Under the pieces are notes generated by a model. It was not told the origin of the DNA and searched no databases. It worked only from the letters and a program-made list of their open reading frames with translations. Shown here one piece after another: positions 7,879-47,500 of a stretch of 49,914 bases of DNA. The DNA comes from an uncultured Patescibacteria group bacterium (GTDB lineage: Bacteria; Patescibacteriota; JACMRA01): contig CALITC010000007.1 in NCBI GenBank assembly GCA_938041505.1, positions 1-49,914 on the forward strand. Direction: 5' to 3'. Position 1 is the stretch's first letter; the number at the start of each line of letters is the position of its first letter. The position numbers and the translations under genes are program-made.

Positions 7879-10800
7879 CTATTTTATAAGCAATTCTCCA
7901 AGGATTGAGTTAGCCACCACATGCTGGTTACCCTCACTATCTTCAAACTGCACCTCTACTCGGTAATTCTTTAACGGGTTCAATCCATTCTGCTCTAAGA
8001 ATAACTCGTTGCTTAGTTCACCAGAATCGAATCTGTATTCATTATCTCCATCGAATAAGGTAGCTTCGATAATAGAGTTCACAGAACCATTCACAACTAG
8101 CTTACAAGGTCCTTCTTGGCACCACTCAACTTCTGGGACTGTTGTGTCCACACTGCTGTATGCGTATTCAGCCATACGGTAACCATTTTCCTCGAATGTA
8201 ATTGCATACTCACCTGCTTGGGTGTTGACTTGAACGTAGCAAATATCATCTTGGTAGTGGCTCTGAGCTATAAGACTACCTCCCTTAACAGATGTAACAA
8301 GAGCGCTACAGCTATCAGTCTCAAAGGCAAACATTCCGATATCTCCAGCTTTTACTATGTTTCGACCCTCCACTAAGTCAGCTTGATCGAGTTCTTCAGC
8401 CACATCATTATCGTTTAGGAAGATTTCCAAATTATTAGTCTGAGCGATTGAAAGTACAGAAGCCTTGGCGTTGAGGTCTAGATCCAAATATCTATCTTGC
8501 CCAATCGACTTAATATCTTTTGAGTCGAACAACGTTGCTGGAGCATCAACTGTAGCTAAGCCATTGGTGATTGCCGCTTCAATAACCTTACCATTGTAAT
8601 CGAATCTTAAAGCTCCAGACTCAACTGGCAAACCTTGTTGATCTACGATAGGTGAGGTATGTAGTCTGAGCTGAATTTCATCTCGAGAGTCAACCTTAAC
8701 TTCCGGTGTAATTGCAAATAAGTTAGCTGCATCACCAGCGATATTCTTAACCACCTTATGGAATGTCCTATTACCAGCCTCAAGTTTTACTAAAGCCTGA
8801 GGGTTGTTTCGGTATTGCTTAAGCTCATAGTCAAACTCACAGGTGTCTGTCTCAACTAAATATGTAGCTGAAGCAAACGCGTAGTCAATGTCGCTTCGAA
8901 TATATTGCAAAGAACATGCAAATTCTTCTTCAGATTGTAAGCCTCCATACTCAGCTTTTACGTTCTCGTCGCTATTCATTTCAGCTGGGATGTAAGGAAG
9001 GATAAGTCTCATCTCATCTTCGATAATCGTAACTAATCTAGATATAATATTCGCTCCAGTATTGTTATCAACGAGGTTGAAGAACACATCGTCACCTTCT
9101 TCACCCTCAAAGATACTAGATGGGATAATGACTTGGGCAAAACCATCAACAACTGAAATAGCTTCTTGCATGACTACTTGGTCTTCTTTAACCACAGCCA
9201 GTGTAAGGTCGTTGGTGCTTGTGGTGTTACCGTAGATATCAGTTACTGGCCCAACAATTAAGTTATTAGCAAAACCGATACGAGGAGATTCGTACTCCAA
9301 GTTTAAGAAACCATAATTATCTGGCACACCCGGTTTGATAGTAACCTGTCTAGATTGAGAGATATCGGTATTGATATTGCGGCCGCTAAGAGAAATAAGC
9401 GCCGGTCCTGCAGAAGTTACTAGATCTCCACTAATTGTTGCTTTACAGTTACCGCTACTTATTGTTCCTGAGACAAAGAGTGGGTCAACGGCATCTGCTG
9501 CTGTATATACCTCTACTCCACAATCACCACCAGTGATGGTATTACCATTCTTATCTTTGACGCCGCTTACCGTGACTTCAATCGGTTGACCAATTTGTAG
9601 TGAGTCGTAGTTTTCGATAATGACTCCAGAAGATGTTAATCCAGCCTCGTTAGAAGTAAAATTAAGTTGAATGGTATCTGACTGTTTACCGTCTTCTAGC
9701 TTCGCATATGCGTAGTATAGCCCACCTTGACTGAAGTATTTACTCGGTACGCTTGCGTTAAAAGTACCTGCTTTAGTTGTAAGACCTAGACCATCGATAC
9801 TTTTGATTTCCTCGCTAGATCCTGTGTTGTAGTGAAGTAGGTGGATAGTTGCGCTTGTATCAGCGATGGGCTCATTGTATTGATCTTTGATCTCACTAAT
9901 CTCTAAGTCTACTGATTTTTCTTGATCTAAGAATGTTGTATTGTTTTTCAGATCCAAAAGACCAGCTGTTTTCTTGGCAAATGCAATATCGACTGTTTTA
10001 CCTGTACCGTCCAAAGATAGGGTGTAGATACCATCTTCAGGAAGTTGCGATGAGCTAACCCTAGCAATACAATCTCGATTACTGTTTACTGCCGAAGAGA
10101 AGTTGGCTACAGTTTCGCCGTTTCGCAGTGCTGTAAATGAGCATACGTTACTGGTTTGAGGTACGGAATTACTATCTACCACATCACGGGCATACACATA
10201 AGCGACTCCATTGACTGAGGCAGGTCCGAAAGCTACGAATAAGTCAGCATCTTCATCAGGATTGAATTCACTGCTAGATCCAAGAACTTCAAATTGGCTA
10301 ATCTGGCTAAATAGTTGATTATCTTCATCAACAAACATTGCCGAGTAGGCGCCAGGTCGCAAATCTACTACATTAATCAAACATGTTTCAGTATCACTAA
10401 GGTTGCAGTTCTCGTTTGCTACGATATCTTGGCTAGATCTGCTACTAATAAAGACTTTGCCTTCAATATCATTCTTCAACACGCCATTCTTAGAGAGTGT
10501 TAGGGCTACTGGTTGCCCAGGTTGATAAGTTTGAGAGTCGCTACCTAAGCTAAGATAGTTGGTAAGATCAGGATCAACAGCCGGGTTAAGAGCTAAAAAC
10601 TCTCTATTAGTATCGGCAATAAGGTTCCCAGCAGGAGTTTGGTAGGTTAATTTCCCCAAAACACTAACAGAGTCAAGATTTTTGTTCAGAATAGTTCCAG
10701 CTAGAGTGTACGTTGAGCGCTGGCCAGCAGATAAAGAATTGAGTTGAGTTTGAGAAGTTTCTACTGCGTATTCTGCGCCGCTTTCATTGGACACCAATGA

Positions 10801-11154
10801 GTTCCATTGCAACGAGTCGCTTGTTGAAAGTAAGTTTAGATTAATATTGTTGATTGACTCGTTAGGGCTTGAGTTCTGAAGAGTTAGTTCAAATGTCACT
10901 TCCTCGTCGATTGCTAAATTACTATCAGCGTCCAATCTTAGAGCGGCGACAAGCTCAGCAGGGTAGTAAGCACTAGATTCGTCTCGTGGTTGGTTAAGAA
11001 GGCCATACCCGATTAGCCCGGCGATCATAACATATAAGGATACCACACCTAGCAATACTCGCTGTTTATGTGGGTTGAATAGCACTTTGTGGATTACTCC
11101 GCGATGCTGGCGTGGGAGCGCCTTCAAAAGGTCATTTTTTTTCTTCTCAAACAT
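7879..11154 (-). CDS. Large membrane-anchored surface protein with Ig-like repeats
   Basis: A 1091-residue protein. A basic N-terminus (1-31) is followed by one membrane helix at about 32-52 (RVLLGVVSLYVMIAGLIGYGLL) and then only extracellular-type sequence, so it is probably an N-terminally anchored outer protein. The rest is beta-strand-rich with repeated units of about 90-110 residues, such as LSLGSDSQTYQPGQPVALTL, IIENYDSLQIGQPIEVTVSG and VGPVTDIYGNTTSTNDLTLAV. These resemble bacterial Ig-like or invasin-type domains. Cysteines come in pairs within single repeats (for example NCNLSDTETC), suggesting disulfides. It lacks the LIR[T/S]GG tail of the other surface proteins here. A promoter and a terminator frame it as a single-gene unit. 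The function is unknown; adhesion or envelope scaffolding is inferred only from architecture. Confidence 0.75.
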   Translation of the reverse strand: MFEKKKNDLLKALPRQHRGVIHKVLFNPHKQRVLLGVVSLYVMIAGLIGYGLLNQPRDESSAYYPAELVAALRLDADSNLAIDEEVTFELTLQNSSPNESINNINLNLLSTSDSLQWNSLVSNESGAEYAVETSQTQLNSLSAGQRSTYTLAGTILNKNLDSVSVLGKLTYQTPAGNLIADTNREFLALNPAVDPDLTNYLSLGSDSQTYQPGQPVALTLSKNGVLKNDIEGKVFISSRSSQDIVANENCNLSDTETCLINVVDLRPGAYSAMFVDEDNQLFSQISQFEVLGSSSEFNPDEDADLFVAFGPASVNGVAYVYARDVVDSNSVPQTSNVCSFTALRNGETVANFSSAVNSNRDCIARVSSSQLPEDGIYTLSLDGTGKTVDIAFAKKTAGLLDLKNNTTFLDQEKSVDLEISEIKDQYNEPIADTSATIHLLHYNTGSSEEIKSIDGLGLTTKAGTFNASVPSKYFSQGGLYYAYAKLEDGKQSDTIQLNFTSNEAGLTSSGVIIENYDSLQIGQPIEVTVSGVKDKNGNTITGGDCGVEVYTAADAVDPLFVSGTISSGNCKATISGDLVTSAGPALISLSGRNINTDISQSRQVTIKPGVPDNYGFLNLEYESPRIGFANNLIVGPVTDIYGNTTSTNDLTLAVVKEDQVVMQEAISVVDGFAQVIIPSSIFEGEEGDDVFFNLVDNNTGANIISRLVTIIEDEMRLILPYIPAEMNSDENVKAEYGGLQSEEEFACSLQYIRSDIDYAFASATYLVETDTCEFDYELKQYRNNPQALVKLEAGNRTFHKVVKNIAGDAANLFAITPEVKVDSRDEIQLRLHTSPIVDQQGLPVESGALRFDYNGKVIEAAITNGLATVDAPATLFDSKDIKSIGQDRYLDLDLNAKASVLSIAQTNNLEIFLNDNDVAEELDQADLVEGRNIVKAGDIGMFAFETDSCSALVTSVKGGSLIAQSHYQDDICYVQVNTQAGEYAITFEENGYRMAEYAYSSVDTTVPEVEWCQEGPCKLVVNGSVNSIIEATLFDGDNEYRFDSGELSNELFLEQNGLNPLKNYRVEVQFEDSEGNQHVVANSILGELLIK

Positions 11155-24058: not shown

Positions 24059-26797
24059 TTATTGCTGTTTTTTCTTTTTGTTAGCTGTAGACCAAGCTAT
24101 AATACCAGCAAAAGGTAGTAGGGAGAACTTCAAGAGGGAAGATGCTACTTGAGCAAATCCTCCAGTTCGAATCAACCCTTCACCTGTAGCGGTTTCTTGA
24201 GTCTCTGTATCTGCACCAGCACCAGTTGGAATATTGAATCCAAAGTCTGCATAGACAATGTCTGGGTTCTCAGTAGTGACAGCAACACAGTAGCCTTCAG
24301 CCGTCTGAGAGTTATTGTCTAGATCCGCAATACCGGTAGTGTTAGCAGAGTAGTCTACTCCATTGACCCGCACAATATAATTCGCATCAAGTGCTAGCTC
24401 ATCAAAGAGGTATTCACCATTCTCATCTGTAGTTAGCGTGGCAATTGCAGTGCTACCAGCGTCAATTGAGCAGTCGTTGTCAGTATCAGCAAATAACTCG
24501 AGTTCAATTCCAGGCAATCTATCATCACCTTCGTCGAAGAAGCCATTACTATTATTATCGTTGAATAATAAGGTACCCACGCTTCCTAGTCCTCCAGTTC
24601 CACCAATCGCAGCAGGAACGAATCCGAAGTCTACTGTGTGATCTGCACCTCGTTCGCTTCCAGTATTAACATTGGCAGAGTAGAAGCCATCGCCTACTAA
24701 GCCATCAGAATCTCGAGAATCTCCGTTGTCTGAGCTATCATTATTGCTAATAGTAGCTTCGTATCCAGTCAGAGCCTCTTGATCTGCAGCAATTCGTACT
24801 TCGTAATCAGTGTTTAGATTAAGATCTAGATTATATACACTAGAAGCAGTAGATACACCATCGCGAGAAGAAGAGAAGATATAATTACCGTTCTCGTCAG
24901 TTGTCGCAGTTCCTAGAAGTACCCCATCTTGATAGAGCTCAACTACTACTCCTGCAAGTACCTCTTCACCTGCGTCTTGAATTCCATTGGAATTACCATC
25001 AACCCATACGTAGTTTCCTATCTCAATTGGAGCAGCTTCACAAAGAATCTCCAAATCTCCAAGTCCGTTGGTCTTACCCAAAGTATCCTGATAAGCGGCT
25101 AGGTAAACATCATACGCTCCAGTTTGCTCTCCTGTACTGTTGCTGTATAGCTGCACACCACCGGTGTTAAAGTTGTCGGTACGCTCAGTTCCGTCTTGAT
25201 CCTGATTGACAGCGTCATAGGCTGTGGTAACTACATCTCCTGAGCTTGGCAATAGAGCAAGTGCTCCGCTAGTGGCTTCGTCCGCTGTGCCATCTCCTGG
25301 GTTCTCGGTAGGGTAGAATTCATTATTAATTGACCAGGTACCGTCTCCATTAGACTGAGCTTTGAGAATATCTCCATTACCTCTTGGCCATGGATCTTGA
25401 TCTGGTCTAAGTCCAGCTCCTGGAGTAATATCACCGTACCTATCTCTGAAACCTAGAATTAAGTCATCACCGTCAAATTCGATATCAGATAGGATTGGTT
25501 GTGGCATCTGTGTTACGATCTCTGCATCAGAAACTGTCTTCCAAGGGTTCCAAGCTTGATAAGTCTCCCCTCCACGATAAGTCGTTAGGTCAGAGCTCAA
25601 AACTGTTGTGAAATTACTTCCATCATACTCCCATACATAAGTTGCAATATCACCTGCATCTTGAGAGGACTCAGCAGAACAAACACCTCCGACATATACT
25701 TTGTCGTTGTTGACACCAACAGCAAAAGGTCGAACATCGTCAGGATCACATCCATCAATATCGGTAGGAATTGCTGTAACATTAATGGTGGTAGCATCCA
25801 AATCTCCACTAGTAGGGATTTCGTATAGGCTACGATCCGCTAGGTTGACAGCGTAGAGAGTTGATCCATCTGCTGATAGTTCTAGGTCTCCAAGTCCTGC
25901 CTTACTTACAACTTCACTAGTAGCTCCATCGTCGTTAAAGTCGGTAGTGGCTGCAGGGTGTGGGTTTACTCCGGCAGTGTCTGCACCGAATACTGTGTTA
26001 AGATCAGTATAAACTGCAGAAGAAGCTCCGTCGAAGACATTGGAAGTCTTGTAGATTGCTCCAGTGCTTTCACCACTCAAACCTCCTAATTTACTTTTTC
26101 GTCTTACGAAGCTACTTGTATACAAACTCTCAGAGCCCTGGTCGTACGCAAGACCGTAGACAGTTCCAATACTGTCGTTGAATCCTATTGGTGTTGGCAT
26201 GTTTTCGTCTGAGCGTGATACCCAATCTTCAGGTTTGTTACCAGGTGTGTTAAGCCCTGGGTTCTCTTGTCCCTGGAAACCATTCAAGTCGCTAGCAAAA
26301 GCATACGGGAAAGTTACCAAAGCATCTCCCTCTAGGTCACCTTGCAAGAAGCAAGAAGTGGCGATGTGGGCATTTGCTTGACAATAGTTAGCTGGGTCTG
26401 TGAGTCCAAGGTTTGCAGAAGAATCTCCTTCGACAAATTGTATTGTACTACCGTTAGTTGATCCTACTCCAGAAGGGGTAAGTCCCTCAGGGATGTTGGT
26501 GAATTCAACACGGTACGGTGCTTCGCCATCGGCGTCAACAACATAGGTTCCGTCGCTACCTGTAGTTGCAGATCCTTGCGGGGTATTCTCAGCATCAAAT
26601 ACTGTCACAAGAACATCTTCCACACCCGAGTCGGCCACTGCGTTATCCGCCGTTACCCCGTCGAGAGTTCCGTTAGCATTATTATCCAAAAATACTTGAC
26701 CATCAATCGTACTCGCTGCGGAGACATTAATTGCCAATATTGGTTGTACCACGAGCGCTGCAAAGGCAAATACACTCAATCCTTTCTTTAACTGCAT
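24059..26797 (-). CDS. SdrD-like surface protein with LIRTGG sorting-type tail
   Basis: A 912-residue exported protein with a signal peptide (about 1-28, ending VSAAS). The first SdrD B-like domain (about 30-112) reads IDGQVFLDNNANGTLDG. A central region (about 120-590) is probably propeller-like, with repeats such as LGDLELSADGSTLYAVNLADRS. Two more SdrD B-like domains follow, at about 595-720 (GNYVWVDGNSNGIQDAGEEV) and 735-860 (GTLLFNDNNSNGFFDEGDD). Such domains bind calcium in Gram-positive adhesins. The C-terminus has LIRTGG at 875-880 (24158-24175), a hydrophobic stretch, and KKKKQQ, the order of a cell-wall sorting signal. A perfect promoter and its own terminator make it a single-gene unit. 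The ligand is unknown. Confidence 0.85.
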   Translation of the reverse strand: MQLKKGLSVFAFAALVVQPILAINVSAASTIDGQVFLDNNANGTLDGVTADNAVADSGVEDVLVTVFDAENTPQGSATTGSDGTYVVDADGEAPYRVEFTNIPEGLTPSGVGSTNGSTIQFVEGDSSANLGLTDPANYCQANAHIATSCFLQGDLEGDALVTFPYAFASDLNGFQGQENPGLNTPGNKPEDWVSRSDENMPTPIGFNDSIGTVYGLAYDQGSESLYTSSFVRRKSKLGGLSGESTGAIYKTSNVFDGASSAVYTDLNTVFGADTAGVNPHPAATTDFNDDGATSEVVSKAGLGDLELSADGSTLYAVNLADRSLYEIPTSGDLDATTINVTAIPTDIDGCDPDDVRPFAVGVNNDKVYVGGVCSAESSQDAGDIATYVWEYDGSNFTTVLSSDLTTYRGGETYQAWNPWKTVSDAEIVTQMPQPILSDIEFDGDDLILGFRDRYGDITPGAGLRPDQDPWPRGNGDILKAQSNGDGTWSINNEFYPTENPGDGTADEATSGALALLPSSGDVVTTAYDAVNQDQDGTERTDNFNTGGVQLYSNSTGEQTGAYDVYLAAYQDTLGKTNGLGDLEILCEAAPIEIGNYVWVDGNSNGIQDAGEEVLAGVVVELYQDGVLLGTATTDENGNYIFSSSRDGVSTASSVYNLDLNLNTDYEVRIAADQEALTGYEATISNNDSSDNGDSRDSDGLVGDGFYSANVNTGSERGADHTVDFGFVPAAIGGTGGLGSVGTLLFNDNNSNGFFDEGDDRLPGIELELFADTDNDCSIDAGSTAIATLTTDENGEYLFDELALDANYIVRVNGVDYSANTTGIADLDNNSQTAEGYCVAVTTENPDIVYADFGFNIPTGAGADTETQETATGEGLIRTGGFAQVASSLLKFSLLPFAGIIAWSTANKKKKQQ

Positions 26798-41218: not shown

Positions 41219-42031
41219 TTATATAAATACTCTTTCTGTATAGATAAAACTCATAAAGACAGAGAGTATTACATAAGGAAGTAGCTGCGGTGAAGAAGAT
41301 CGCCCTCCTGATCTAATCAAAGGCGTAGATTCACCTGAACCACCACCGACACCAGTAAATTCTTCGCCACCTTGCCAATCTTCTGATTCGTTATCCGTAG
41401 ATTCGTTAGCACCTCCTCCAGAACCAAAATTCGTTTCGCTGCCACCATTGGTAGAGTCATCTCCGCCTCCGCCAACTGGTCCCGCACACTGATATTGGTA
41501 GGCTTCACAGACAAAGTCATCTCCTGGATAAACATAACCACTATCATTATTGTGAGAGTCTCCATGGTCTTCATCGTGAGTTACCGTATCGTCAAAATGA
41601 TTATCAGAGATTATATCAAAATTATAACTAGAGACGTTGCTGTAATGTTCTCCATTATGGATTCTAAAAGTAAATCTATCTGCCCCGTGAAAATCATTCT
41701 CAGGCGTGTAGGTTAAGCCGGTAAAAAAATCAGGCAAGTCGATAGTGTCGCCGCTTTGAACTAGATCTCCAGAGTAGTTATAAAGTGCTCCGTGTGATGG
41801 AATCTCCTGAATTAATGCGTATTGAGAGTATTGCGGTGTATCAACGTTGTTGGTATAAACATGTGTAGTAAGAACATGTACTGAGGCATTCATACTCAGC
41901 TTAAGAGAATAGTCCTGGGTGACAGGAAGCTCAGAAGCCTCAGTGTCAATCGGAGGCAAAGAAAAACTCAAAACAAACATTGTTAAAAATGCAGCAACTA
42001 GTAGTCGAAAATTCTTGATAAAATAGATCAT
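41219..42031 (-). CDS. Surface protein with cadherin-like domain and LIRSGG tail
   Basis: A 270-residue exported protein with a signal peptide (about 4-32). A beta-sandwich domain (about 40-145) contains IPSHGALYNYSGDLVQSGD and LTYTPENDFHGADRFTFRI, the pattern of cadherin-like/VCBS-type repeats. A His/Asp-rich stretch follows (THDEDHGDSHNNDSG), which could bind metal, then a Gly/Ser/Asn-rich linker. The C-terminus has LIRSGG (238-243; 41303-41320), a hydrophobic segment and a short end with one Arg. I start at the ATG (42031), since the upstream GTG at 42058 lies in the -10 box. It is divergent from the giant gene at 42434. Confidence 0.8.
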   Translation of the reverse strand: MIYFIKNFRLLVAAFLTMFVLSFSLPPIDTEASELPVTQDYSLKLSMNASVHVLTTHVYTNNVDTPQYSQYALIQEIPSHGALYNYSGDLVQSGDTIDLPDFFTGLTYTPENDFHGADRFTFRIHNGEHYSNVSSYNFDIISDNHFDDTVTHDEDHGDSHNNDSGYVYPGDDFVCEAYQYQCAGPVGGGGDDSTNGGSETNFGSGGGANESTDNESEDWQGGEEFTGVGGGSGESTPLIRSGGRSSSPQLLPYVILSVFMSFIYTERVFI

Positions 42032-42049
42032 AATATTAATTTTTACTTT

Positions 42050-42079
42050 AAAATACACAAAAAAGTAAATTTAGGTCAA
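42050..42079 (-). promoter_or_regulatory. Promoter of the LIRSGG gene
   Basis: Minus strand TTGACC (42079-42074), 18 bp, TATTTT (42055-42050), 18 nt before the ATG. Confidence 0.6.
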
Positions 42080-42385: not shown

Positions 42386-42414
42386 TTGACGTGATTGATG
42401 AGTTTGCTTAATCT
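42386..42414 (+). promoter_or_regulatory. Promoter of the giant surface gene
   Basis: TTGACG (42386-42391), 17 bp, TAATCT (42409-42414), 19 nt before the ATG at 42434. Confidence 0.6.
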
Positions 42415-42433
42415 TGGGCAAATAATATTCATT

Positions 42434-45400
42434 ATGAAATATACAGAGGTAACGTCAGATTGGAAGACTGATAATAATTTAAAAAATATTGAGAACGGTA
42501 AGATTTTCAAAATTTTAAGAGCATTTTCCCCGACAAAAAAGACACTTTCAAAACTGCTTCTGTTTCTATTGGTTGTCTCCAGTTTACAGTTCATTTCAAA
42601 TAAAGAAATTGAAGTACAGGCTAACCCAGGAGGGATTTCTTCCAATTTAGACTTTTGGCTAAATGCTGAATCTGGTTTAGATCTAGATGGGACTGACATA
42701 AATGGCTGGACAGACCAGTCACCAAATTCAATTTTGGCTTTTCCTGATCTTACTCCAGGATACCTTGATCCGCAATACCAAACTAATAGCTCAAATTTTA
42801 ATCCAACAGTAGGGTATTTGGCTGATGATGAAGCGTTGTTGTTTGATGATGAGGAGTTGCCGATGGGTAATTCGGCGCGTACTATTTTTATAGTGGCCAA
42901 CCCAGAGGACACCGAATACAACGACACTGGGGTTTTTAGTAGGGAGAATCTATTTCTATACGGAAACGAAGATTTTGGCGGGACTCCCGGAGAATTTTTT
43001 GCTACTTCAATGAAATCTGATGGATTCAGAATAGACTGGGGTAGTCACAAAGTCCAGAGTTCTCTCACTTCCCCAGACACTAGTATCGCGACAGTATCGT
43101 TTGAGGCAGGTGCCAACACAGATGAGGCTAATTTTTGGTTGAATGGAGAGCCAAATGTATTAGAGACTGTTGAGGGGGCATCGGTACCAATTAACACCAC
43201 TATTTCTAATCTAGGTGTGGTAGGTGACAATGCAGGAGGTAGTGATAGTTATATTGGTGATATTGCAGAGGTTATCATCTATGATACAGAGCTATCTGAT
43301 ACTGAGCGATCTCAAGTAGAGTCATATCTTAGTTTGAAATATGGTATTACAAAATCTGGTTCGAACGAGATGCTAATTTCTAATCCAGATGAGAGTAGTA
43401 GTTATTCTAGAAGTGTGACACTAGGTCAGTCTTTTACGGCAACTTCAGATAGCATGCTCACTGATGTTCAAATTGGTGTATCTACCAACCTTAACTCCAA
43501 TACGGCTACTCAAGTAGATCTCTATATCTGTGAGGGAAGTGTTTATTGTACTGCTGGAAATTCTATTAATACCACCACTGGCTTGCCCGTTAGCCCAGGC
43601 ACTCCGATGTTACCACTAGGTACACCTTTGGAGATGGTCAAAGGTAATCAATACACATACGCAATCAATCCTAATAGTGCCATTCGCCTAACTCGTGGCG
43701 TTGACTCTTACTCCGGTGGAACGGCGTTTAACGATAGTGGTGTACCATGGGCTGTTGATTACACTTTCTTTATTCACGGGTATTCTATTGTTGGAGATTA
43801 TCTTACATCAAATGGTACAGATACTATATGGGATAATGCTCGTGCCAGTGCAGGGTACCATAACGATGTGGTTGGTATTGGTCGTGATATAAGCTCAACT
43901 CTAGATCAGCGCATATCTAAGTCTATAAGTAACGACGCAGTGTTAACTATAACCACAGATGACGATACTGCAGATTACACTAGTGCTAATGGTGGAACTC
44001 GCACGCAGCTTAACGATCTTGAGTTTGTTAGTTTAACCAACAATGATGGAGCAATCACTTCAGCACCAGTGAATATTGCTGGATATAGCCATCAGATTGG
44101 GCGCCAATGGCACGCACAAGTAGCTAACTATACAGGCAGTGTTAACGCAAAATTTGATATTGCAACCCTTTCCGGAAATGGCTGGGAAATTGTGCAGTCA
44201 GATACGGATGATTTTGCTAGTGGCTCTGCCAACTTGACCAAGATTGCGGATATAGGGGCAAGTGGTGAAGTAACTGACGTGACATTTGTTGATGGCAAGT
44301 ACTACGGATTATTGCAGCGAGTAAATAGAGAATTAGTGTATAGTTTGTCTGATCCATACGATGCTTCAAAGTTCGTATATGCTGGCGATGGTGAGCTATT
44401 TGATATTTCAGATTATCACACCAATGTCACTGGTGTAGACTTTAGCACTGATGGTACAAAAATGTTTACTGTAGGATACTTAGAAGAAGAGGTAAATGAG
44501 TTTATTCTTTCTGCCCCATTCGATATCTCCACTGCCGTATTTAGCCATACAGTTGATGTGGGAACCCAAGAAAATAGAATTCAGAATCTTGAGTTTAATA
44601 ATGATGGTACAAAAATGTTCATTATCGGTAACGATGATGTTATTTATGAGTATACTTTAAGCGAAGGGTTTGCTCTTTCTACTGCTAGCTACGCGGGTAA
44701 TTCTGAGACTCTTGACATAGGGGCTCAAGATGGATCATCTACTGGTATTGGGTTCAGCGCTGATGGAATGAAATTGTTCTCAACTGGTTTGCAATATGAC
44801 TTGATTCATGAATATGATCTTTCTGCTCCATTTGATGTCTCTACAGGGGTCTACACTGGGGCGGGGGAAACACTTGATCCAGATGTTGACGGTGCAGGTA
44901 TTCCAGGGGATGTATTGTTTAACGAAGATGGCTCAACTTTGTATGTACATAGTAGTCGGACATTATATGAGTATACGCTAGGAACCCCATACGATATATC
45001 CACAGCCACTTTTGAGGGTATTGCGATGGACAAAGGTGCTCTGACTGGGACTTTTGGCGTTGCTTGGAGTCCTGTGTTCAACGATAATGGAACTAAATTG
45101 ATATTTGCTGATGGCTCTAATTCTACCGTGTCTGAGTTTGTTCTCGGTCCTGTACAAGGTTTTACAGAAGTTGTTGAAGATAATGGATCTTTGGTAGGTC
45201 AGATTGGTGCAAGATTAGTTGAAGATACTTTTGCTGATATTGATAATAACGGAGAGTTGACAGCGTGTGGAGGAAGTTTTGCTTGTGTCGGAGGTGAGCA
45301 GTTGCAACTAGGGAATATTCCTGCAGAATTTACTCCTACGGTAGCGTTATATGATGGTGATGGGTCAACCTCTAATACCAACAACACCGCAACTGTCATG

Positions 45401-47500
45401 ATTGTCATCCTTGTAGGAAACGCAGCAAATCACGAAAATATTGATGATATCTCGGACATTACATTCGTATTTGCAGATAATGCGTTCAATTCAAACGATG
45501 CTGGTGCAATTGATCGCTCTGGTGACGCAAGCCCCTTCTCAACTAATTTTGGTATCGACTATATTAGTATTCCGGGTGTGGACGTGGATAACGAGTCGGG
45601 TATTTCAATTACCGAAGATCTTAATAACGGCTCATTTGGGGTGGCGCTTGAATCAGCTCCAACTTCTGATGTCGTAATTGACATAAGTAGTGCAGATACA
45701 GGTGCAGCAACTGTAAGCCCATCCCAGTTAACATTTACTTCGTCTAATTGGAGCACGTCACAATCTGTCACCATTACACCAGTATCAGATAATGACGTGG
45801 TCGATGAGGTTGTATCAATCACGTTTGCTGTAAACGATGCAAATAGTAGTGATGAATATGATTCATTAGATAACGTAACACGATCTGTGACAGTTACTGA
45901 TGATGATAGTGCTGGGTTTAGCGTTATTCCTTTGATTACCGGCGGAGCTATTACAGAAGGATCTACGAGTAGTAATGAGTTTAGTGTAGTACTAGATCAC
46001 CAACCTCAAAGTGAAGTGATAATCAATATAAGTTCTGCCAATTCAGCCTTGAATGTTGATACAGGTTCACTCACATTCACTACAGCAAACTGGAGTACAC
46101 AGCAGCCGGTCTCATTAACGGCATCTGAGGATGACAACGTGGTAAGCGAGCAGAATATTGAGGTAACAATATCTGTAAATGACGGAACGAGCGACAATGA
46201 TTTTGATGGCTTAACTGACTCCATAGAGGTGGATGTAATCGATAACGACACCGCCACTATCACGGTTAGCCCAAGTGGAATTACCGTAGCAGAGAATGCG
46301 GGTAGTGACACGTTTACTGTAGTGTTAGGTGCCCAGCCAACAAGTGATGTGGTTATCGATCTGACAAGTGTAGAATCAGAAGAAGCAACCGTAAGTCCTG
46401 CTCAATTAACATTCACTTCTTTGAGTTGGAATACACCACAAATAGTCACAGTCACAGGTGTTGCAGATACTTTTGTCTCTAACGACTCTACTGACATTAT
46501 GGTGTCTGTAAACGACGCGACTAGTGATGATAGCTTTGATGGCTTAGGTGATACTGTTGAAGTAACGCTCGTTGATGACGAAGTTGACTCGGATAACGAC
46601 AAGGTATCAGACGATCAAGAAGCAATAGATAATACAGATCCAAGTAATGCTTTGGATTACAAGGATAGTGATGGTGATGGTGTGCCAGATGTTGTTGAAG
46701 AATCCGAAGGCTCTGATCCCAATGAAGAGACAAGTTTCCAAGACAGTGATAATGGTGGTGCACCGGATTACGTGGAAACAATCCTTTTACCAAATTCCGG
46801 CCTTACTGGTACCGATCCAAGTTATGACTCAGATGACGAAGATAGTGATGGTGATGGAACCTCTAACTCCCAAGAGCTTAACAGTCCAAACAATGGTGAT
46901 GGGAATGGCGATGGTATTCCTGACTACTTGCAACCCAACGTTGCAAACATTCTCAACCCAGATGATCAAAGCTACGTAACCCTTGTTGTTGCAGTAACTT
47001 GCGACAGCACTAACACGCCAGAATTCAGAACTGAGCAATTCTACGGAGATGACCCAGATTTTTCATATCCATACGGGCTTCTCAAGTTTGAGATCGGATG
47101 TGCGAATTCTCTTGTAGAGGCGTACTGGCATGGGGCAGATATTGCTGCTGAATATGAGATTCGTAAGTACGGAAACCTCACTCCAGGAGATGATAGCACG
47201 GGAGGTTGGTATGATCTGGAAAGTGTTGTGGATATTGTTGAAGTCGGTGGAGAAAGTATTGTAAAAATATCGTACAACTTAACCGACGGCCAATTAGGAG
47301 ATGATACTGGTGTAGACGGGGTGATTATTGATCCAGTCGGTCTAGCTTTATTAGAGTCCGAAGAAGATGGTGTTACAAGTCCTGAAACTTTGATTAGAAC
47401 TGGAGGTGTCGTCTCAAACCCGTATTCTTTGGTGGTATTAATGGCTGGAGTTGTTGCACTCAGCGGTGTGGTGGTTGATAAGTTTAAGCAAAGGGTCTAA
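42434..47500 (+). CDS. Giant multidomain surface protein with LIRTGG tail
   Basis: A 1688-residue exported protein. A basic stretch and signal helix lie at about 36-62. A lectin/LamG-like domain (about 68-310, FWLNAESGLDLDGTDINGW) comes next, then a DUF8202-like unit (about 460-620, WDNARASAGYHNDVVGIGRD) and a propeller-like series of about six repeats (about 625-905) built on FSTDGTKMF, YEYTLS and PFDIST. Three Calx-beta-like repeats follow (about 1040-1375, each with LTFTSxNWST or close, and ending VTDDD, VIDND or LVDDE). Thrombospondin type 3-like calcium loops (about 1376-1490, DSDGDGVPD) precede a choice-of-anchor U-like unit (about 1500-1645, TDGQLGDDTGVDGVIIDP). LIRTGG (1653-1658), a hydrophobic helix and KFKQRV end it. 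Starting at 42434 avoids initiating inside the promoter. Likely an adhesin or envelope protein; ligand unknown. Confidence 0.85.
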   Translation: MKYTEVTSDWKTDNNLKNIENGKIFKILRAFSPTKKTLSKLLLFLLVVSSLQFISNKEIEVQANPGGISSNLDFWLNAESGLDLDGTDINGWTDQSPNSILAFPDLTPGYLDPQYQTNSSNFNPTVGYLADDEALLFDDEELPMGNSARTIFIVANPEDTEYNDTGVFSRENLFLYGNEDFGGTPGEFFATSMKSDGFRIDWGSHKVQSSLTSPDTSIATVSFEAGANTDEANFWLNGEPNVLETVEGASVPINTTISNLGVVGDNAGGSDSYIGDIAEVIIYDTELSDTERSQVESYLSLKYGITKSGSNEMLISNPDESSSYSRSVTLGQSFTATSDSMLTDVQIGVSTNLNSNTATQVDLYICEGSVYCTAGNSINTTTGLPVSPGTPMLPLGTPLEMVKGNQYTYAINPNSAIRLTRGVDSYSGGTAFNDSGVPWAVDYTFFIHGYSIVGDYLTSNGTDTIWDNARASAGYHNDVVGIGRDISSTLDQRISKSISNDAVLTITTDDDTADYTSANGGTRTQLNDLEFVSLTNNDGAITSAPVNIAGYSHQIGRQWHAQVANYTGSVNAKFDIATLSGNGWEIVQSDTDDFASGSANLTKIADIGASGEVTDVTFVDGKYYGLLQRVNRELVYSLSDPYDASKFVYAGDGELFDISDYHTNVTGVDFSTDGTKMFTVGYLEEEVNEFILSAPFDISTAVFSHTVDVGTQENRIQNLEFNNDGTKMFIIGNDDVIYEYTLSEGFALSTASYAGNSETLDIGAQDGSSTGIGFSADGMKLFSTGLQYDLIHEYDLSAPFDVSTGVYTGAGETLDPDVDGAGIPGDVLFNEDGSTLYVHSSRTLYEYTLGTPYDISTATFEGIAMDKGALTGTFGVAWSPVFNDNGTKLIFADGSNSTVSEFVLGPVQGFTEVVEDNGSLVGQIGARLVEDTFADIDNNGELTACGGSFACVGGEQLQLGNIPAEFTPTVALYDGDGSTSNTNNTATVMIVILVGNAANHENIDDISDITFVFADNAFNSNDAGAIDRSGDASPFSTNFGIDYISIPGVDVDNESGISITEDLNNGSFGVALESAPTSDVVIDISSADTGAATVSPSQLTFTSSNWSTSQSVTITPVSDNDVVDEVVSITFAVNDANSSDEYDSLDNVTRSVTVTDDDSAGFSVIPLITGGAITEGSTSSNEFSVVLDHQPQSEVIINISSANSALNVDTGSLTFTTANWSTQQPVSLTASEDDNVVSEQNIEVTISVNDGTSDNDFDGLTDSIEVDVIDNDTATITVSPSGITVAENAGSDTFTVVLGAQPTSDVVIDLTSVESEEATVSPAQLTFTSLSWNTPQIVTVTGVADTFVSNDSTDIMVSVNDATSDDSFDGLGDTVEVTLVDDEVDSDNDKVSDDQEAIDNTDPSNALDYKDSDGDGVPDVVEESEGSDPNEETSFQDSDNGGAPDYVETILLPNSGLTGTDPSYDSDDEDSDGDGTSNSQELNSPNNGDGNGDGIPDYLQPNVANILNPDDQSYVTLVVAVTCDSTNTPEFRTEQFYGDDPDFSYPYGLLKFEIGCANSLVEAYWHGADIAAEYEIRKYGNLTPGDDSTGGWYDLESVVDIVEVGGESIVKISYNLTDGQLGDDTGVDGVIIDPVGLALLESEEDGVTSPETLIRTGGVVSNPYSLVVLMAGVVALSGVVVDKFKQRV

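Follow-up and report, generated by a model that had tools for sequence, protein, structure and literature searches.

A candidate serine-nucleophile branch of the sortase family and its LIR[TS]GG signal in Patescibacteria

Many exported proteins of an uncultured Patescibacteria group bacterium (assembly GCA_938041505.1) carry LIRTGG or LIRSGG near the C-terminus, and the same genome encodes two sortase-family proteins with serine in place of the catalytic cysteine. We propose, with a probability of about 0.7, that one branch of the sortase family uses serine as its nucleophile and reads a signal of the form L-x-R-T-G(G), and that in this lineage the signal has been partly freed from the membrane anchor. 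LIR[TS]GG would then be a lineage-specific version of LPxTG, read by one or both of the genome's own serine sortases.

The window is the whole stretch of DNA that was analysed (contig CALITC010000007.1, 49,914 nucleotides). A first-pass annotation of it described LIR[T/S]GG followed by a hydrophobic stretch in three exported proteins, and the translations agree at all three sites. The features, with their basis, are:

24059..26797, minus strand: 912-residue secreted protein with SdrD_B and SpaA-like domains; putative tagged substrate with an anchored tail (translation, domain matches)
24158..24175, minus strand: LIRTGG motif of the 912-residue protein (translation)
24062..24157, minus strand: hydrophobic helix and KKKKQQ tail behind LIRTGG in the 912-residue protein (translation)
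41219..42058, minus strand: 279-residue secreted protein, cadherin/Ig-like (weak); putative tagged substrate with a helix and short tail (translation, domain matches)
41303..41320, minus strand: LIRSGG motif of the 279-residue protein (translation)
41222..41302, minus strand: hydrophobic helix of the 279-residue protein, followed by a weakly basic end with a single Arg (translation)
42395..47500, plus strand: 1701-residue secreted protein; putative tagged substrate with an anchored tail (translation, homologues)
47390..47407, plus strand: LIRTGG motif of the 1701-residue protein (translation)
47408..47497, plus strand: hydrophobic helix and KFKQRV tail of the 1701-residue protein, which ends in DKFKQRV (translation)

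The tail behind the LIRTGG at 24158-24175 reads FAQVASSLLKFSLLPFAGIIAWSTANKKKKQQ, and the 279-residue protein ends in FIYTERVFI. As described, the tail is basic in two of the three proteins (KKKKQQ and KFKQRV) and has a single arginine in the third (41303-41320), and the 1091-residue protein encoded at 7879-11154 has no LIR[TS]GG in its translation. The N-terminal domains were said to be unrelated. This holds broadly for the three proteins in the window (there is one weak match, E = 0.001) but not genome-wide, where several tagged proteins are homologous. Domain matches among the tagged proteins include SdrD_B, SpaA-like, and beta-propeller-repeat domains, all typical of surface proteins; the first two are adhesin-like.

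A degenerate DNA pattern for LIR[TS]GG has 12 matches in the whole genome, and the reversed control has one, so the recurrence of the motif is not due to chance. Ten of the 12 matches are read in frame as C-terminal motifs of open reading frames; the remaining two lie inside an alanine-racemase-like open reading frame and in a frame of eight codons. Relaxing the pattern brings in two more motifs that precede a helix, LVRTGG on contig 10 and MIRTGG on contig 26. The genome, which is about 69% complete, encodes at least 10 C-terminally tagged proteins, or twelve counting LVRTGG and MIRTGG. A scan of 380 genomes from the phylum finds the LIRTGG pattern nine times in this genome (G000), six times in each of two members of the same family (G002 and G003), and 0–2 times per genome elsewhere, which is the control rate. 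The first-pass annotation had expected a sorting signal used beyond the window, and the genome-wide scan bears this out: many further exported proteins bear the motif, in this genome and in two relatives. Two family members that lack LIRTGG were sampled. The G004 sample had only LVRSG-helix and LSRTG-helix endings, and we found no sorting signal in the G001 sample.

The tagged proteins have two kinds of ending. In six proteins of this genome (the three in the window and those on contigs 3, 10, and 26), a helix lies behind the motif. Six others stop one residue past the hexamer, as LIRTGGF (one), LIRTGGR (three), or LIRTGGY (two). Bare endings in G002 and G003 consist of the hexamer and two or three residues (NN, FSL, LKY; ND, RDN, QSK), and anchored endings are found there too. 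None of the frames behind the bare stops encodes a helix, and the bare-ended genes are closed by TAA as well as by TAG, at the same distance from the motif.

Related proteins can differ in their endings. The bare protein L005 from contig 5 (LIRTGGR) is 33% identical over 780 amino acids to the anchored protein at 24059-26797. Similarly, the bare protein L003 from contig 2 (LIRTGGF) is similar to the C-terminal portion of the anchored protein at 42395-47500, which has anchored homologues in G002 (L038) and G003 (L042). The anchored protein at 41219-42058 is 30% identical over 145 amino acids to a bare protein from G002 (L035), and the anchored protein from contig 26 (L140) is homologous to a bare protein from G003 (L045). 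There is also an orthologous pair of bare proteins from two genera (L041 in G002 and L030 in G003; 49% identity over 423 amino acids). Because homologues exchange anchored and bare endings, we consider the hexamer to be the conserved unit and the anchor to be optional. The first-pass annotation had viewed the tail itself as conserved, which needs correcting: the helix and basic tail are missing from about half of the tagged proteins. In textbook sorting, a helix and charged tail hold the substrate, and the bare endings depart from that.

In three of the bare genes, the reading frame is interrupted further upstream. The genes on contig 2 (L003:8165-9628) and contig 6 (L007:8207-9958) each have an upstream in-frame TGA, one of which lies within the signal peptide; the genome otherwise uses TGA as a rare stop. 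These in-frame TGAs could reflect assembly error, a pseudogene, or recoding. We considered genetic code 25 (TGA = Gly) because relatives are labelled Gracilibacteria or SR1 and because TGA occurs inside two tagged genes. We rejected it, as almost no long gene contains an internal TGA and some genes end with one. The loci L052-L057 apparently come from a single GTDB family, and their conflicting public names (Gracilibacteria, SR1, Peregrinibacteria, and Paceibacterota) appear to be mislabelled. On the minus strand of contig 21, L009:7407 encodes a bare LIRTGGR ending and a WSACSTAC (thrombospondin-like) stretch; it has no clear start, and its upstream frame is apparently broken.

A sortase had been expected elsewhere in the genome, outside the window, and a profile search located two sortase-family genes. 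These are the only matches to PF04203, on contigs 6 and 4 (39 and 37.1 bits, with a curated cut-off of 26.6). In both proteins, a hydrophobic segment at the N-terminus precedes the sortase domain, which is C-terminal. At the TLxTC position they read TLQTS and TLQGS (the latter on contig 4), with serine for the catalytic cysteine, and the profile aligns this serine with the catalytic cysteine position of solved sortases (TIVTC in 4d70). In an alignment of eight members of the class, His232, Ser303, and Arg318 are invariant; the histidine is in GHSSN and the arginine in KRW or KRY.

In an AlphaFold model of L052, the orthologue from G002 (63% identical to the contig-6 sortase), most of the catalytic core has a pLDDT of about 90. 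The 50 best PDB matches of this model are all sortases (probability 1.00), with classes C and D on top. The TM-scores are modest (about 0.5–0.7, target-normalised), partly because of an extra N-terminal region. The predicted structure shows a sortase fold for the serine enzymes. No NCBIfam model for a sortase class reaches its cut-off; the only matches, far below it, come from C, D, E, F, and GN. The earlier suggestion of a class E-like sortase did not hold up, as the class E model misses both proteins; with serine at the nucleophile position, they are not ordinary sortases either.

Serine-type enzymes are present in all six genomes of the class that we examined, although one of the two copies in G002 is cut before the active site. 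Each of the three LIRTGG genomes carries both sortase lineages, with one copy cut by a contig end. The TLQTS lineage includes L001, L016, and L020, and the TLQGS lineage includes L002, L025, and the cut copy L022, which was placed by overall similarity (its active-site part is missing). Within the family, the genomes with LIRTGG are the same as those with both lineages. Three genomes from the family have serine sortases and no LIRTGG, which means that the motif does not follow from the type of enzyme alone. We saw no sortases clustered with substrate genes in this class. Because the serine sortases do not adjoin LIRTGG genes, their pairing with the motif rests on co-occurrence in three related genomes.

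As to what does lie nearby, the neighbourhood of the TLQTS sortase is conserved between G000 and G003 (L011:8330-11945 and L053:5388-9688). It contains a membrane protein, the sortase, a GtrA-like protein, and a 6-phosphogluconate-dehydrogenase-like protein (these names were assigned by eye). On contig 4 (L012:7079-9623), the TLQGS sortase is convergent with a carboxypeptidase-like gene (M14 by eye), 37 bp apart.

Serine sortases are also found across the phylum. A neutral pattern, TLxT[SC][YW]PxGT, identified 12 serine and 12 cysteine forms in 192 genomes; the serine forms were all TLQTS and the cysteine forms were all TL[MIVLY]TC. The nucleophile could be read in 86 aligned sortases (79 distinct); 40 of these have serine and 46 have cysteine, and the histidine and arginine are kept in all of them. 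Serine forms are 33 of the 79 distinct sequences, a fraction that is not an unbiased estimate, as the sample was drawn with a serine-type profile. They always read TLQ[TG]S, with glutamine two residues before the serine in 40 of 40. The serine codon at this position is TCN in 31 distinct genes and AGT in two. That the codon drifts while the serine stays suggests that the amino acid itself is kept, as expected under selection. AGT is found in L002 and L018, and the switch between TCN and AGT may have passed through cysteine (TGT) or threonine.

In a tree of the sortases, the serine label requires two changes: one split between serine and cysteine, and a nested cysteine sequence (L015). The tree is unrooted, so it does not give the direction of change, and few columns support the deep forks. 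The serine forms, which are phylum-wide, appear to be essentially one lineage. L015:523-1566 is an extra gene in G005 that reads TLQTC and is nested in the serine clade of the class; it is a probable natural exchange of serine and cysteine. L242 (G125, contig 4) is a 523-residue open frame whose serine sortase has a long N-terminal part; it adjoins an open frame of 2347 residues.

We also examined up to 20 kb around each of 20 short serine sortases from other Patescibacteria. In eight of these regions, a neighbour on the same strand and less than 100 bp away ends in LPRTG (seven) or LPVTG (one) and a helix, usually with basic residues. At L245, a further LPRTG protein lies 947 bp from the serine sortase, and two more serine loci from another sample have LPKTG and LPRTG neighbours. 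Among the cysteine loci, one of about 37 has a comparable neighbour; there, about 1 kb was read on each side, and shorter flanks can miss downstream genes. Pairs of sortase and substrate genes are a usual sign of a working sortase. Because a gene for an LPRTG-helix-basic protein is often beside a serine sortase, the serine enzymes look like working sortases. The arginine at position 3 is common to LPRTG and LIRTGG, which seems to tie the lineage-specific motif to the serine branch, and LIRTGG reads as a variant of LPRTG.

Could the serine proteins instead be catalytically dead, or pseudo-sortases that only bind, with another enzyme processing LIRTGG or with the motif acting as a binding tag? 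Cysteine is the nucleophile of the characterised sortases (PMC5148588), and with the genome about 69% complete, a cysteine sortase could be absent from the assembly. We still think this unlikely. The serine, histidine, and arginine are all kept over great divergence, the serine stays while its codon drifts, and other lineages have dedicated pairs of serine sortase and LPRTG genes. Also, the cysteine form is nested in the serine clade, G000 has serine forms only, and the readable copy in G002 has serine. A different idea is that the enzymes work but LIRTGG is cleaved by hydrolysis only, so that surface proteins are released rather than anchored. Serine acyl-enzymes are often resolved by water, and in the bare-ended substrates there is no membrane anchor that could be exchanged. 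But trimming three residues off a bare protein that is already soluble would have little point, and the adhesin-like SdrD_B and SpaA-like domains fit anchoring, which makes this quite improbable.

The bare endings themselves might be artefacts of annotation or assembly, with a frameshift or premature stop before the helix, and the frames of three bare genes are indeed interrupted further upstream. This is already contradicted by the lack of a helix in any downstream frame, the equal distances at which TAA and TAG close the genes, and the orthologous bare pair in two genera, and we give it very little credence. Finally, the first-pass annotation raised a rhombosortase-like enzyme. The Gly-Gly of the motif resembles GlyGly-CTERM (PMC3237569), so a rhombosortase or exosortase might read the motif in the membrane, and a general rhomboid profile did find one gene in this genome. 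However, that gene looks ordinary, and the exosortase profile PF09721 has no match at E ≤ 1 in the genome at its ~69% completeness. Half of the tagged proteins lack a transmembrane helix, which is a poor fit for an intramembrane protease, so this suggestion is hardly credible.

If, as we prefer, a serine sortase acts on LIRTGG, the tagged substrate would be exported by Sec, and its motif would be captured by the membrane-anchored enzyme. The serine, activated by the conserved histidine and arginine, would be the nucleophile and would attack the Thr-Gly bond at the threonine carbonyl. This would release Gly-Gly and the rest, which is either the helix with its basic tail or only 1–3 residues. 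The LIRT acyl chain would then pass from an oxyester intermediate to a putative surface amine, in a transpeptidation rather than a hydrolysis. Because bare substrates would have to be captured without a membrane stop, the sortase would have to act at the translocon or close to it, or else within a closed-off wall or S-layer space. A fuller picture has natural and widespread serine-nucleophile sortases of Patescibacteria reading L-[P/I]-R-T-G, a bare and anchor-free signal in one lineage, and TLQTS and TLQGS paralogues that may split the anchored and bare substrates; we consider that picture about an even bet.

The proposed system resembles the sortase/LPxTG systems (MEROPS C60, PF04203; classes A–F) in its sortase fold, N-terminal membrane anchor, and conserved histidine and arginine. 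Its signal, like that of LPxTG substrates, is a C-terminal L-x-x-T-G, with a helix and basic tail behind it in half of the cases. It differs by the serine in place of the catalytic cysteine, and the signal differs by isoleucine instead of proline at position 2, a fixed arginine, a second glycine, and the many substrates without a helix or tail. Class E sortases (LAxTG; Streptomyces SrtE1) also have the sortase fold and a non-proline residue at signal position 2, but they use cysteine (PMC5148588), and the short serine sortases match the class E model only below its cut-off. Class C and D sortases give the best structural matches to the L052 model and the best sub-threshold class-model matches to the short serine sortases, yet they have a cysteine nucleophile and canonical tripartite substrates. 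Rhombosortase and GlyGly-CTERM share a serine enzyme and Gly-Gly near a C-terminal helix, and protein families swap tail types in that system (PMC3237569), as endings swap here. In contrast, rhombosortase has an intramembrane rhomboid fold, and its signal includes the helix.

The sortase catalytic triad is described as containing cysteine (PMC5148588). The serine enzymes are sortases by fold and lineage and fail the chemical definition (cysteine transpeptidase), so we view them as a sortase variant that probably works alike. In the literature, we found no natural serine sortase and no mechanism for a CPR sortase, which is weak evidence, as the search reached few subscription journals or preprints. 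The CPR literature within this search mentions sortases only in passing, as present. As far as the searched literature goes, the serine sortase branch is new.

Work on sortases, from their definition to their inhibition and engineering, treats them as cysteine transpeptidases. If our reading is true, a natural serine branch that is common in a huge uncultured phylum would mean that the sortase fold works with an oxygen nucleophile. Serine sortases might escape thiol-reactive sortase inhibitors, and ligases made from them could withstand oxidising conditions or use short C-terminal tags as substrates. The bare-ended substrates would also cast doubt on the rule that sorting signals require a membrane anchor. 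Patescibacteria are tiny and mostly host-dependent, and to our knowledge, few systems for dressing their surfaces are known. The LIRTGG system may offer a handle on this process.
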